Virus record (IMG/VR): IMGVR_UViG_3300025138_000301
Location: 1-26,091 of that record
DNA from: a virus
DNA: 26,091 nucleotides
Direction: 5' to 3' (one strand)
The notes under the pieces are model-generated. The model saw only the letters and a list, made by a program, of their open reading frames with translations. It did no database searches and had not been told where the DNA came from. The translations under genes and the position numbers were made by a program. This document shows positions 6,660 through 24,990 of this stretch, piece after piece; position 1 is the first letter of the stretch, and each line of letters opens with the position of its first letter.

Positions 6660-9557
6660 ATGGGATTTATAAGAGTAAAGACAGATGACGGCATGCAGCG
6701 TATCAAGATTGTTGGTGATGAGCCAACAAGCGAAGAGGTGTCTAAAATACAAAATTATTTTTCACCATCATCTAAAGAGGTTCAAAAATCTTCTTTTTCT
6801 GACTTAATGGAGCAAACAAAATCCGCATCTCGTGATAAGGGCTTTGATTACAAAACTGGCGCAGACTCTGGCCTTAGAGCAAAAATATCTTTTGGCGAAA
6901 CAGGCGAAGAACAAGAGGCTATCCTTGCCAAAGTAGTTGGTAAAGAAGGATATACACGAGATTCTTTTGGTAGACTTGCTTTAACACCAGAGGGTCAACG
7001 TAAAAGAGGTATGGAGAACATTACTGGGAATCTAATCATTGAAGATGAAGGGTTCTCTATGGGGGACTTTGCTGACTTAGCTGGTATAGTTCCAGAAACT
7101 GCTGGTGCTATTGTTGGTGGTATATTGGGTCTTCCGGGTGGTTTGATTACCGCTTCATTAGGCGCAGCTGGTGGAGCGGCAGTGGGTCAAACCATAGAAG
7201 AGGGCATTGAAGCCCTGCTTGGCGTACAGAAACAAACATTAGGAGAAGTTGCTGGAGATGTAGCTACTGAGGCCGCAATTGCAGGCACACTTGAGTTTGT
7301 TACTCTCGGTACGTTTAATGCAATTCGCGGTGGCTTAAATATGGGCAAAGGAGCTATATCAAAGCCATTAGAGCAAGCTACTATTGAAGGGTCTGAACGC
7401 GGTGCTAGATTGATAGACAAAGGCGCTGCTCCCAGTCTTGAGAGGCTTGGAGCGCCAAGCACTTTAGCTTATGGTCAAAAACTAGCAGAAGGGGCAACCA
7501 AGAACACTGATCGTGTAATAAAAAACACTAATTTTGCTTTAGACACAGCAGAAGAATTTAAAGATATTCTTGGTAGGGCTGAAGTTGATGATGCTGGAGC
7601 AGCGTTTGCTGATGTTGCAGGTCGTAGATTTAAAGAACTAAACCAAACGCAAAAAGAAGCGTCTGACGCATCAATGAAGGCTGTTAAAGATAGCATTAAT
7701 GTTATTGAAAGATCTCTAGATGAAGGCTTTGATATAAATGACTCTACTCTTCAAGCCATAACAGGTTCGTTCCAAACCTTTAGCCGTGTAAGCGGAAGCC
7801 AATTTCGTGTTATGGATGAAATGTTAAGCAAACTTCAGTTTGAAGACGCAGCAGGAGTAGTTAAAGAAGGTGGGAAAGCTCGGATTATAAACACTGGAAT
7901 TATTGAAGGCGCTGTTAAGGATCTTGAAGAAGCAGTCGGCGCTAGGTCCGTTTTGCCATCTCCAGTACAACAAGCAATGCGGGGCATTGAGGAGCTTGCT
8001 TTAAAAGGAAAAGGCAAGGCTTCTTTTGAACAACTAGCTAATCAACGCAAATTAGTTAATGACGCTTTGTTTGACAACGATTTAGGCCCAGCTACTACCG
8101 AACAATTGTTCAAGTTACGCAGTGCTTTTGATTCAACTCTTGAATCTGTAAATTTACAAAGTATACCAGGAATAGCAAAGGGCCAGCAAAAACAACTTGG
8201 CGCTATAGCAACGCAGAGAGAGCTCGCCTTTAATACATATCGTGAAGGTTTAAAGGTTTTTGACGATCTTCAAAAGTTTGGCATTGTAAGAAATGTAAAA
8301 TCAGCGTCCAAAGACCCACGTTTTAATGTGGATCAATTTTTCAAAAAGGTAATTAAACCAAACTCTCCAGAACGATTAAAAGCTGTGTTTGCTGCTGTAG
8401 ACAACTCAGAAGAGGTTCGTAGTCAATTAGCTCGTGCATACTTAGACGATGCCATGAGAAAAACCAGCATTGACCTTATGGACCCATCATCTTTTAATGG
8501 TATGCGTTTTTTAAGTCAAATTCAAAGCCTTGGGACAACTGGTCGAGAATTGTTTGGCGAAAGTTGGCCTCAAGTACAAAGGCTTGCAGCTACTATAGCT
8601 CAGTCTGGTCCAACTAAAATAGATGGCGATATTGTCCAAAGAATTATGACACTTAACGCTGATAGACCACTTACTACCGCTTTAAAAGAGGTTGCAGACG
8701 CTAAAGAAGCTTTAGGTGCTGCTCAAAAAATAAGAGTTATTAGAGAATTTAACGAAGGCACACTAAGCCCAGAAGAGGCAGCGTCTTATATTGCAAGCCC
8801 CTCAAGAAGCATAACTGAAATAAACCAAATTAAAAGCTTCTTTAAGGATGACCCAGAGGCTTTAAATACTATTAGACAGTTTGTTTTAAACGATATTGTA
8901 AGCTCTGTTGGCGATGATGTGTTTACAGACACCTCAAAGGCTCTTGCTCTTGATAGGTTAATTAACAAACAGTACAAGCCTGGAGTATTAAATTCTTTAC
9001 TTGGAAAGGATATTGCTGAAGGACTAAAGCAATTTGCTGCGGATTTGGCTTATCTCGGAGATGTGGGCAAAGAAGGGGCTATTGTTGCTGCTCAATATGC
9101 CGCTCACCCAATAAGTAAAGCTGGGGCTAAAACCCGTATGTCACTTACCTCTAAATTTTTTGCAAATGAAAGAATAATGAAAGCCTTTGCCAGAAAAGGT
9201 CAGGGACTCCCAGATGCAAAAGGGTTCGGAGGAAAGGTATCTGGTGCATTAGATGCCGCTGTGTCTGGTGTAGGCGCTACTATGAGACCCTTAAGACAAG
9301 CTGGAGTAAGAGCAGTCATAGCGCCATCTGGACCTATTATTCAAGAATCAGACCAACAAGCATTTGCACAAACTCCGCCTGTTTCAGCATCTGCTCTTAA
9401 TTCTATAGATATAATACAACAACCCCAAACGGGAACAATTGCACCTGTTAAGCCAATGACGTTAAATAAAGACATTCGCACTATGGCCTCTTCTGACCCA
9501 TTTGTTGCTCAGGCGCTTGGCATTCGTGGGCCTACAGCAGGATTATTAAAAAGATGA
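6660..9557 (+). CDS. Very large internal virion / ejection protein
   Basis: At 965 residues this is the largest protein in the window. It starts at ATG 6660 with GAGG nearby (6650-6653). Residues about 134-182 form a long Gly/Ala/Ile-rich hydrophobic stretch (PETAGAIVGGILGLPGGL and on) that could insert in a membrane. Most of residues 230-870 is predicted by eye to be helical, rich in Ala, Glu, Lys and Gln. The C-terminal 80 residues are Pro/Gln/Ala-rich. Size, helical content and place just before the lysozyme match the internal core or ejection proteins that podoviruses inject to form a channel across the envelope. No transglycosylase motif was found. The final TGA overlaps the lysozyme start by four bases. 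Confidence 0.65.
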   Translation: MGFIRVKTDDGMQRIKIVGDEPTSEEVSKIQNYFSPSSKEVQKSSFSDLMEQTKSASRDKGFDYKTGADSGLRAKISFGETGEEQEAILAKVVGKEGYTRDSFGRLALTPEGQRKRGMENITGNLIIEDEGFSMGDFADLAGIVPETAGAIVGGILGLPGGLITASLGAAGGAAVGQTIEEGIEALLGVQKQTLGEVAGDVATEAAIAGTLEFVTLGTFNAIRGGLNMGKGAISKPLEQATIEGSERGARLIDKGAAPSLERLGAPSTLAYGQKLAEGATKNTDRVIKNTNFALDTAEEFKDILGRAEVDDAGAAFADVAGRRFKELNQTQKEASDASMKAVKDSINVIERSLDEGFDINDSTLQAITGSFQTFSRVSGSQFRVMDEMLSKLQFEDAAGVVKEGGKARIINTGIIEGAVKDLEEAVGARSVLPSPVQQAMRGIEELALKGKGKASFEQLANQRKLVNDALFDNDLGPATTEQLFKLRSAFDSTLESVNLQSIPGIAKGQQKQLGAIATQRELAFNTYREGLKVFDDLQKFGIVRNVKSASKDPRFNVDQFFKKVIKPNSPERLKAVFAAVDNSEEVRSQLARAYLDDAMRKTSIDLMDPSSFNGMRFLSQIQSLGTTGRELFGESWPQVQRLAATIAQSGPTKIDGDIVQRIMTLNADRPLTTALKEVADAKEALGAAQKIRVIREFNEGTLSPEEAASYIASPSRSITEINQIKSFFKDDPEALNTIRQFVLNDIVSSVGDDVFTDTSKALALDRLINKQYKPGVLNSLLGKDIAEGLKQFAADLAYLGDVGKEGAIVAAQYAAHPISKAGAKTRMSLTSKFFANERIMKAFARKGQGLPDAKGFGGKVSGALDAAVSGVGATMRPLRQAGVRAVIAPSGPIIQESDQQAFAQTPPVSASALNSIDIIQQPQTGTIAPVKPMTLNKDIRTMASSDPFVAQALGIRGPTAGLLKR

Positions 9558-22009: not shown

Positions 22010-22534
22010 ATGCCAAAAGTAGGTCAAGACTTACCAAAGGAACAAAGGGAGGCTGGTCTAAAGCGTTTAAAGCCCCAGCAACAACAGTTCCTAGATTATT
22101 ACCTGCATAAGGATATGACACAGACCGAGGCAGCGCGGCAGTCGGGATACAAAAACCCTACAGTGCAAGCTGTTAGGCTATTGCGTAACCCAGTTGTTGC
22201 AGAGCGGTTGCAAGAGATGAGGCTAGAGGCAACGGCTCGATATGGTGTAACGCTAGATAAGTCTATTCGGGACTTAAAAAAAATCCGTGACCAAGCTTGG
22301 GAAATGGGAAAATTTAGCGAAGCATTGAGGGCAGAAGAGCTAAGATTGAAAGCAGCGGGACTACTTGTTAATAAACAACATGTGGTAACCGAAGATATTA
22401 CAGCGTCAACAAAAGAGGCAATATCAGATAAATTGGCTGAATTTAAGCGTTTAGCAGAGTCCCGAATGAAAAACGTAACACTAAATGTAGATGTAATAGA
22501 TAATAAGGCACAAGATATAGCGCAAGATAGTTGA
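22010..22534 (+). CDS. terS: Terminase small subunit
   Basis: The 174-residue protein starts at ATG 22010 after AGGAGGG. Residues about 20-70 (LKPQQQQFLDYYLHKDMTQT, EAARQSGY, RLLRNPVVAERL) are the helix-turn-helix of the Terminase_2 small-subunit family, which recognises the packaging site on concatemeric phage DNA and delivers it to the large subunit. Residues about 80-120 are a long charged helix for oligomerisation; the C-terminus (MKNVTLNVDVIDNKAQDI) is a beta tail typical of ring-forming terminases. The large subunit gene is not in the window: the DNA after this gene is a GC-rich repeat island, not terL, which is unusual and makes the island a candidate packaging site. Confidence 0.85.
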   Translation: MPKVGQDLPKEQREAGLKRLKPQQQQFLDYYLHKDMTQTEAARQSGYKNPTVQAVRLLRNPVVAERLQEMRLEATARYGVTLDKSIRDLKKIRDQAWEMGKFSEALRAEELRLKAAGLLVNKQHVVTEDITASTKEAISDKLAEFKRLAESRMKNVTLNVDVIDNKAQDIAQDS

Positions 22535-22612
22535 TAGGGGCTAATTGTTCGGGCTTCACACCGTGCGGGGGGTAAGGGCGATGACGAGCCATGTTCGGGG
22601 CGATTTATAGCA

Positions 22613-22624
22613 GTGTAATTGTTC
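22613..22624 (+). promoter_or_regulatory. Degenerate dyad copy GTGTAATTGTTC
   Basis: It departs from the full dyad at two left-arm bases, keeps AATTGTTC and is followed by GGGG. Similar weaker copies start at 22543 (AATTGTTCGGG) and 22679 (GTATAATTGTTC). Confidence 0.35.
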
Positions 22625-22774
22625 GGGGTCGGGATTTTCTAGGGAATCGGGCTGCCTGGCATCGGGGTTTTCGTACAAGTATAATTGTTCGGGTTACTGA
22701 GGGTTTGCCCAGGTAAAAACCGCAGCGAAGACGCAAAACGCCAGGAGAAACTCCCTGGCAGTCGGGGTTAATAT

Positions 22775-22786
22775 GTACAATTGTTC
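22775..22786 (+). promoter_or_regulatory. Dyad motif GTACAATTGTTC followed by GGG
   Basis: One of three identical 12-base copies in the island after terS (others at 22934 and 23022). Symmetry is centred on AATT with one arm mismatch (GTAC versus GTTC). Confidence 0.45.
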
Positions 22787-22879
22787 GGGATCGGAGCATC
22801 GAGCCCAGGGGTTGTGCTTAGTAATCGGGGTTGACACTGAGGCTTTATCGGGGACAGTATTAGCTTTCCTCCCTGAAGG

Positions 22880-22914
22880 ATCCCTGGTGGCTTTTGCTGC
22901 CAGGGATTTTCTTT
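22880..22914 (+). terminator. Rho-independent terminator in the post-terS island
   Basis: ATCCCTGG (22880-22887) pairs with CCAGGGAT (22900-22907) as a perfect 8-bp stem, extended inside by GC/GC around a 2-base mismatch and capped by TTTT; TTTTCTTT follows. It would end the terS transcript about 350 bases after the gene. Confidence 0.75.
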
Positions 22915-22933
22915 GCAGCGCCCAGGGCTCGAA

Positions 22934-22945
22934 GTACAATTGTTC
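22934..22945 (+). promoter_or_regulatory. Dyad motif GTACAATTGTTC followed by GGG
   Basis: Second identical copy. TCGGGTTAATA follows it, while a near-identical TCGGGGTTAATA precedes the copy at 22775, so a larger unit seems to have been duplicated and rearranged. Confidence 0.45.
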
Positions 22946-23021
22946 GGGTTAATACGAAGCCAGGGGGTTTCCGCAGCACGGGGAGCCAGGCGCCGAATTT
23001 TTCCCAGGTGCAGCATAACCA

Positions 23022-23033
23022 GTACAATTGTTC
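23022..23033 (+). promoter_or_regulatory. Dyad motif GTACAATTGTTC, last copy before promoter
   Basis: Third identical copy, but followed by TATTTG instead of CGGG. It lies 62 bases before the -35 box at 23096; the dyad at 23741 lies 68 bases before the next promoter. Confidence 0.45.
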
Positions 23034-23095
23034 TATTTGTTTGCAGCCACTTTTGCGCAGCCGTATTCTAGGTAGAAAAAAACTTCATTTATTTG

Positions 23096-23124
23096 TTGAC
23101 AGTTGTTGCAGTGATTGCTATACA
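23096..23124 (+). promoter_or_regulatory. Strong sigma70-like promoter, cassette A
   Basis: TTGACA (23096-23101), exactly 17 bases, TATACA (23119-23124). The last part of the spacer, TTGCAGTGATTGC, is nearly shared with the promoter at 23821. The expected start is about 23131, the first base of the leader hairpin. Confidence 0.85.
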
Positions 23125-23130
23125 TAATGT

Positions 23131-23709: not shown

Positions 23710-23740
23710 GTCCGTGCTGCAGCCGTCCCGGTAATAACCA

Positions 23741-23769
23741 GAACAATTGTACTGGGTTGCACCCGGTAC
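23741..23769 (+). promoter_or_regulatory. Dyad GAACAATTGTAC overlapping a hairpin
   Basis: The dyad (23741-23752) is a mirror-orientation copy of GTACAATTGTTC. Its last four bases start a 9-bp stem, GTACTGGGT (23749-23757) with ACCCGGTAC (23761-23769), one T-G wobble, loop TGC. A second hairpin CACTTC/GAAGTG follows. The island between cassettes A and B thus carries the same vocabulary (GCAGC, dyad) as the one after terS. Confidence 0.5.
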
Positions 23770-24653: not shown

Positions 24654-24674
24654 TATAAATTGTTCGGGTTGAAC

Positions 24675-24709
24675 TGGGTTGCAGCAAAAAAGCTGCAGCC
24701 CATTTTTTT
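24675..24709 (+). terminator. Rho-independent terminator of cassette B
   Basis: TGGGTTGCAGC (24675-24685), loop of six A, GCTGCAGCCCA (24692-24702): an 11-bp stem with one T-G wobble, followed by seven T. This is the strongest terminator in the window. Confidence 0.9.
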
Positions 24710-24749
24710 GTCGGGCAGCGTAGATACCTGGGTAATCGGGAAATTGTTC

Positions 24750-24771
24750 GGGTTCGGGTTCGGGGTCGGGG
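24750..24771 (+). other. Potential G-quadruplex
   Basis: Four G runs at 24750-24752, 24756-24758, 24762-24765 and 24768-24771 are separated by TTC, TTC and TC. It satisfies the usual G3+N1-7 rule and comes from tandem TTCGGG units. Confidence 0.55.
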
Positions 24772-24833
24772 TATTTACGCCAGGTTTTTTTCTTGCTGCA
24801 ATCGGGTTCGGGTTTTTTTTTACCCGTGCAATG

Positions 24834-24847: not shown

Positions 24848-24978
24848 TGCTGTTATGAGTATCACATGATGCTTTTTTATTAACCAAAAACAGGTTAATC
24901 AAGCTGCATGCACATTTTTAATTTTTTTTATCATGTCAGACAATATTCTCAATAGCTGGATCGTCTTCTAAATAAGAA

Positions 24979-24990
24979 GTGCAATTGTAC
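24979..24990. promoter_or_regulatory. Dyad variant GTGCAATTGTAC next to promoter C
   Basis: It has one mismatch to GTACAATTGTAC and lies immediately upstream of the -35 zone of the promoter at 25001, a suitable place for an activator or repressor. Confidence 0.4.

Follow-up and report, generated by a model that had tools for sequence, protein, structure and literature searches.

Packaging Signals in Described Phages

In phage lambda, the R sites of cosB adjoin terS as several like-oriented sites, an arrangement that recurs in the phage studied here. The lambda sites are longer, few in number and located beside a fixed cut site, whereas in the group to which our phage belongs the repeats are pentamers that number as many as 21 in an array, and a fixed end is not seen. 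The pac of the Bacillus phages SPP1 and SF6 is comparable in that it contains direct repeats and is served by a TerS of the same sequence family. In SPP1, pac overlaps promoters and the beginning of terS rather than the 3' side of the gene, and packaging proceeds in the direction of transcription (PMC4737164, PMC6316719). The SPP1/SF6 pac is a single region, located towards the 5' side of terS and comprising three direct-repeat sets, while our phage has about 12–13 dense pentamers behind terS and further arrays kilobases off. Lambdoid Chi clusters also consist of a short, G-rich, polar motif between replication genes and terminase (PMC3784561), but Chi is an octamer that is frequent in the host genome too, whereas the motif described here is confined to dense arrays. 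TerL places the group with HTVC023P-type phages and relatives. HTVC023P, HTVC027P, 023Pt_psg01 and DSL-LC04 have TerL proteins that are 54–63% identical and share the gap-rich stretch between terS and terL, yet the known HTVC023P-type pelagiphages and their relatives lack TCGGG arrays.

It is an open question how small terminases of the pac type locate their starting point, since most of them bind DNA weakly and without clear sequence preference, in SPP1 through multiple contacts (PMC9611059). Repeat arrays that act in cis at packaging loci are known, and the TCGGG arrays would be a new form of them. A full-text literature search for TCGGG combined with phage and repeats retrieved no paper, although this does not prove that none exists.

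The Repeat Island behind terS

The window, i.e., the whole analysed stretch of 26,091 bases from virus record IMGVR_UViG_3300025138_000301, is probably a fragment of a larger genome, and its source is an uncultured, probably marine phage. The gene ahead of the island is terS (Pfam Terminase_2, E 6e-9; phrog_51, E 4e-15). By sequence, its product falls in the SF6/SPP1 family, the headful/pac group, with 3zqp, 4zc3 and 2cmp, which are SF6/SPP1 relatives, as PDB matches (E 0.0015–0.002). A fold comparison of the modest TerS model (pLDDT 71) gave no match and is uninformative, and the TerS search found no isolate relatives at E < 1e-5. The initial annotation had described about 560 noncoding bases that follow terS in place of terL, with five or six copies of one motif, mostly in the same orientation and irregularly spaced, and all of this is borne out. 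The 560 bases at 22535–23095 hold no convincing ORF and have a G+C content of 0.53, above the rest of the window, and terL is absent from the window (in relatives it lies ~6.5–8 kb downstream of terS on the same strand). AATTGTTCGGG occurs exactly five times, at 22543, 22617, 22683, 22779 and 22938, and a sixth box, AATTGTTC, at 23026; all six are on the + strand, with start-to-start distances of 74, 66, 96, 159 and 88. With at most one mismatch, AATTGTTCGGG has 14 matches in the whole window, compared to 0.52 expected.

While these copies are real, the deeper repeat unit, which the initial annotation overlooked along with array 2, the intrinsic terminator and the CAATTG-centred boxes, is their shared core, the pentamer TCGGG. 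The island carries twelve copies on the + strand (starts at 22549, 22595, 22623, 22629, 22647, 22662, 22689, 22762, 22785, 22825, 22848 and 22944) and none on the − strand; in 1000 dinucleotide shuffles of the island, the mean was 1.3 and the maximum 7. The features of the locus are collected in Table 1.

Table 1. Coordinates of terS, the TCGGG arrays and accompanying elements in the window.
Feature	Position	Strand	Description
terS	22010–22534	+	small terminase subunit, 174 aa, SF6/SPP1-like by sequence
Boxes	22543–23033	+	six AATTGTTC boxes, five running on as AATTGTTCGGG; CAATTG-centred, palindrome-like in relatives
Array 1	22549–22948	+	12 TCGGG, none on −
GC hairpin and purine run	22558–22578	+	CACCGTGCGGGGGGTAAGGG, in relatives CCCCGYGCGGGGGGAGG; conserved, just behind terS
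Promoter-like site	22831–22860	+	TTGACA-N18-CAGTAT, weak, sigma70-like, within array 1
Anti-Shine-Dalgarno-like element	22865–22874	+	conserved TTTCCTCCCT, between promoter-like site and terminator
Intrinsic terminator	22880–22914	+	ATCCCTGGTGGC-TTTT-GCTGCCAGGGAT-TTTCTTT
Promoter	23096–23130	+	TTGACAGTTGTTGCAGTGATTGCTATACATAATGT, strong, sigma70-like, for downstream genes
Array 2	24664–24812	+	9 TCGGG, behind gamma-glutamylcyclotransferase gene

Conservation and Strand Lock of the TCGGG Arrays

The relatives compared here are IMG/VR contigs, hence fragments, with genes called as simple longest ORFs and only crude redundancy filters applied. A search with TerS yielded 80 loci, and a scan for dense TCGGG added much more distant phages among the matches listed. 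The terminase-bearing phages among these matches fall into two groups. The TerS of group I is 48–66% identical to that of the window (distant matches listed), and that of group II only 23–35%, with a G+C content of 31–53% (again among the matches listed) and an HTH region that varies within the group. TCGGG-rich non-coding DNA lies directly behind terS in every group I relative with enough downstream sequence, and most relatives from the TerS search have a second array ~0.5–2.5 kb further on; per locus, two to five arrays extend over several kb. Across 76 islands, 971 copies are on the + strand versus 6 on the − strand. The sequence between copies turns over fast while the word itself stays, so that TCGGG is far better conserved than TerS, which retains 23–35% identity between the two array-bearing groups. 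Copies are most often spaced by 5–7 nt and show no helical period. Beyond bins of 3–4 copies, no TCGGG-dense cluster was found outside the terS–terL interval in five long contigs. The comparison of relatives thus shows the arrays to be under selection.

Their orientation is constant as well. Across 159 non-redundant terS loci, arrays on the terS strand number 177 downstream and 2 upstream of the gene, and the opposite strand carries none. The arrays run in the terS-to-terL direction with the first one just behind terS, at 18–347 bp in all but two of the 92 array-bearing loci; in these two, the first array is near 6 kb, and at least the one in L399 is an in-frame coding repeat. A single exception to the strand rule is a 5-copy TCGGG cluster on the opposite strand in L465. 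Many neighbouring genes are reversed in group II, and the arrays still keep to the terS strand (L425, L454, L402, L433, L487). Since one reversed gene is a homologue of HTVC023P gp26 (39%, E 7e-44), which is on the + strand in HTVC023P, the reversal is real. Array direction therefore tracks the terminase genes, independently of local transcription, and as orientation is kept beside reversed genes, the signal acts as DNA and not via transcription or within a particular transcript.

Satellite-borne TCGGG was considered and rejected, as the records that were rich in TCGGG but lacked a terminase proved to be truncated relatives, coding repeats or arrays of the GGTCGC hexamer. Long GGTCGC/GGTCGG/GGTCGT hexamer arrays occur in the unrelated viral contigs L398, L415, L424, L426 and L492.

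Further Conserved Elements of the Island

Nearly all group I relatives carry, inside array 1, TTGACA/T followed after 17–19 bases by NATNAT, and then CCTCCC and a terminator. The GGGAGG and CCTCCC blocks are both nearly invariant among relatives, and the terminator stem shows compensatory changes as judged by eye. In the window, positions 22831–22914 would yield an RNA of ~50 nt starting near 22866, which is only a prediction because the −10 is weak and a promoter scan of the window made no call at this site. Rfam gave no match for the island at the gathering threshold, only chance-level ones, and a structured RNA family was ruled out on this ground. CAATTG-centred, palindrome-like boxes, which are perhaps operators, recur in the gaps after terS, at 23018–23033, 23737–23752 and 24975–24990 in the window and at 8629–8640 and 10190–10201 in the relative L083; their form in relatives is AACCMGWACAATTGTTCKGGTT.

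Possible Readers of the Arrays

The island is best explained as array 1 of a strand-polar TCGGG set that marks the packaging region of a phage group. As relatives with very different terminases keep both word and direction, TCGGG probably constitutes a directional signal in the DNA that is linked to packaging or replication. More specifically, we tentatively favour, at somewhat less than an even chance, a signal that is strand-polar, belongs to the packaging region and is probably read during terminase loading; such a packaging-linked signal is preferred because the arrays adjoin terS and are locked to the terminase direction. Like all functional statements on the arrays made here, the mechanism that we infer is conditional: as cis-acting signals of the packaging locus, the arrays would allow a terminase complex, made up of TerS and perhaps TerL or a helper, to load on concatemeric DNA, and they would set the starting zone and the direction of packaging in a headful-type phage. 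Many short copies would thereby offer many weak contacts instead of one strong site.

The proposal of the initial annotation that the repeats form a pac/cos site holds in part. A TerS of the SF6/SPP1 family adjoins them, and the repeats lie beside terS, strand-locked and oriented with packaging, the direction of which is itself inferred. Its closer analogy to R-sites or a pac array bound by TerS fares worse. A TerS-specific pac site fits badly because the same word adjoins TerS proteins of such low identity, because two to five arrays kilobases apart are unusual for pac, because a spacing of 5–7 nt, which is moreover unphased, leaves no room for an HTH on each copy and because no common contig end is found at the island. 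Contigs run through it and their ends are scattered, so that nothing like the fixed genome end of a cos/cosB site is seen near the repeats; for the same reason, contig ends were dropped as a stand-in for genome ends. A pac within terS was rejected as well, given that 41 terS genes show no strongly suppressed synonymous window, a measure that a 20-bp site could escape. One contig of 56,195 bp, G005 (L082–L084), has imperfectly overlapping ends (440 bp at 96.6%) far from the island and is probably a circularly closing genome.

The four points raised against a TerS-specific array are accommodated better if TCGGG has a Chi-like role. The pentamer would then be a polar stop for a helicase-nuclease, either of the RecBCD/AddAB type or a phage enzyme of the Cas4/RecB type, and the arrays would protect DNA ends that arise close to the packaging site, or promote their recombination. 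This would account for a G-rich pentamer on one strand in many low-efficiency copies, for its location, and for its independence from both TerS sequence and transcription; a short polar motif does lie near the packaging region, where lambdoid phages likewise concentrate Chi (PMC3784561). Chi of AddAB is directional with an efficiency of about 20% per site (PMC5443536), addA is widespread in Alphaproteobacteria, where 202 of 289 sampled genomes exceed the cut-off, and the phage encodes a Cas4-domain exonuclease. Nevertheless, we consider this explanation unlikely as it stands: a genome-wide spread is expected of Chi, while TCGGG outside the arrays is unenriched in the window (15 copies on +, 4 on −), pelagiphages of the same supergroup lack arrays, and the putative Chi of Caulobacter is GCGGTGGT (PMC5443536). 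We judge it similarly improbable that the arrays are a replication origin or a polar G-quadruplex, in which G-rich repeats that resemble iterons, are confined to one strand and lie close to promoters would assist the opening or pausing of replication in a single direction. Of the 35 islands retained once those with at least 60% of 10-mers in common had been removed, 29 match (G3+N1–7)x4 on the + strand and one on the − strand; nine long contigs have their + strand patterns exclusively in the array regions, and most group II arrays fit the pattern too. SPP1 origins, moreover, combine direct repeats with an AT-rich region (PMC6316719). However, the sole quadruplex pattern of the window sits in array 2, from 24750, and array 1 has none; the TC that is fixed before the G runs (444 of 663) is not needed for a quadruplex, typical iterons are much longer than these repeats, and GC skew has no clear inflection at the island.

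Transcription offers a further explanation, in which boxes and TCGGG would be operators of the early region around the embedded promoter of a short RNA made up of a CCUCCC 5' end and the terminator. The conserved succession of promoter-like site, CCTCCC and terminator in group I, the CAATTG boxes between genes of the region, the strong promoters that follow and the early to middle expression of the genes in the terS–terL interval of HTVC027P (PMC12753301) all agree with it. It is nonetheless quite improbable in our view, given the weak −10 of the window and the lack of an Rfam match, the arrays that hold to the terS strand beside reversed genes, and array 2, of which the majority of copies lies beyond a terminator (24675–24709). 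Least probable by far is that slippage has neutrally expanded G-rich simple sequence within non-coding gaps. Some arrays are indeed nearly tandem (L030 and the hexamer arrays of the L398 type) and their flanks turn over fast, but the constancy of word, strand and place in lineages of 31–51% G+C, with no opposite-strand array in 159 loci, largely refutes it. A proposal that we put forward slightly more guardedly than the favoured signal for terminase loading is that a previously undescribed, multi-array, strand-polar pentamer marks the direction of packaging or end protection in a large marine phage group, and that its reader is other than the helix-turn-helix of TerS, for example a helicase-nuclease of the host or the phage, or a step that senses quadruplexes. 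As word and direction are kept while TerS diverges, these phages provide a natural test of who reads the array: TerS itself, or another polar reader (Chi-type or quadruplex) at the packaging locus. In uncultured phages of the group, the TCGGG array provides a simple sequence mark for this locus.

Repeats in HTVC023P-Type Phages

Arrays of other words occupy the terS–terL stretch in some relatives. In 023Pt_psg01 (L200 15390–15500), this stretch contains a GCTCG/GCTTG array located behind an unannotated nuclease-like ORF, which is the place of array 1 in group II. In DSL-LC04 (L197 4330–5030), a GC-rich array built from CGTGGCC/GTGGGCCG words immediately precedes terL. The repeats after terS in the HTVC023P lineage were ruled out as a second case, as they are an in-frame 11-aa protein repeat. 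HTVC023P itself (L199 12460–12566) has three unannotated copies of NLENTYRKFFA directly behind terS, and its close relatives carry different three-copy repeats at this position.
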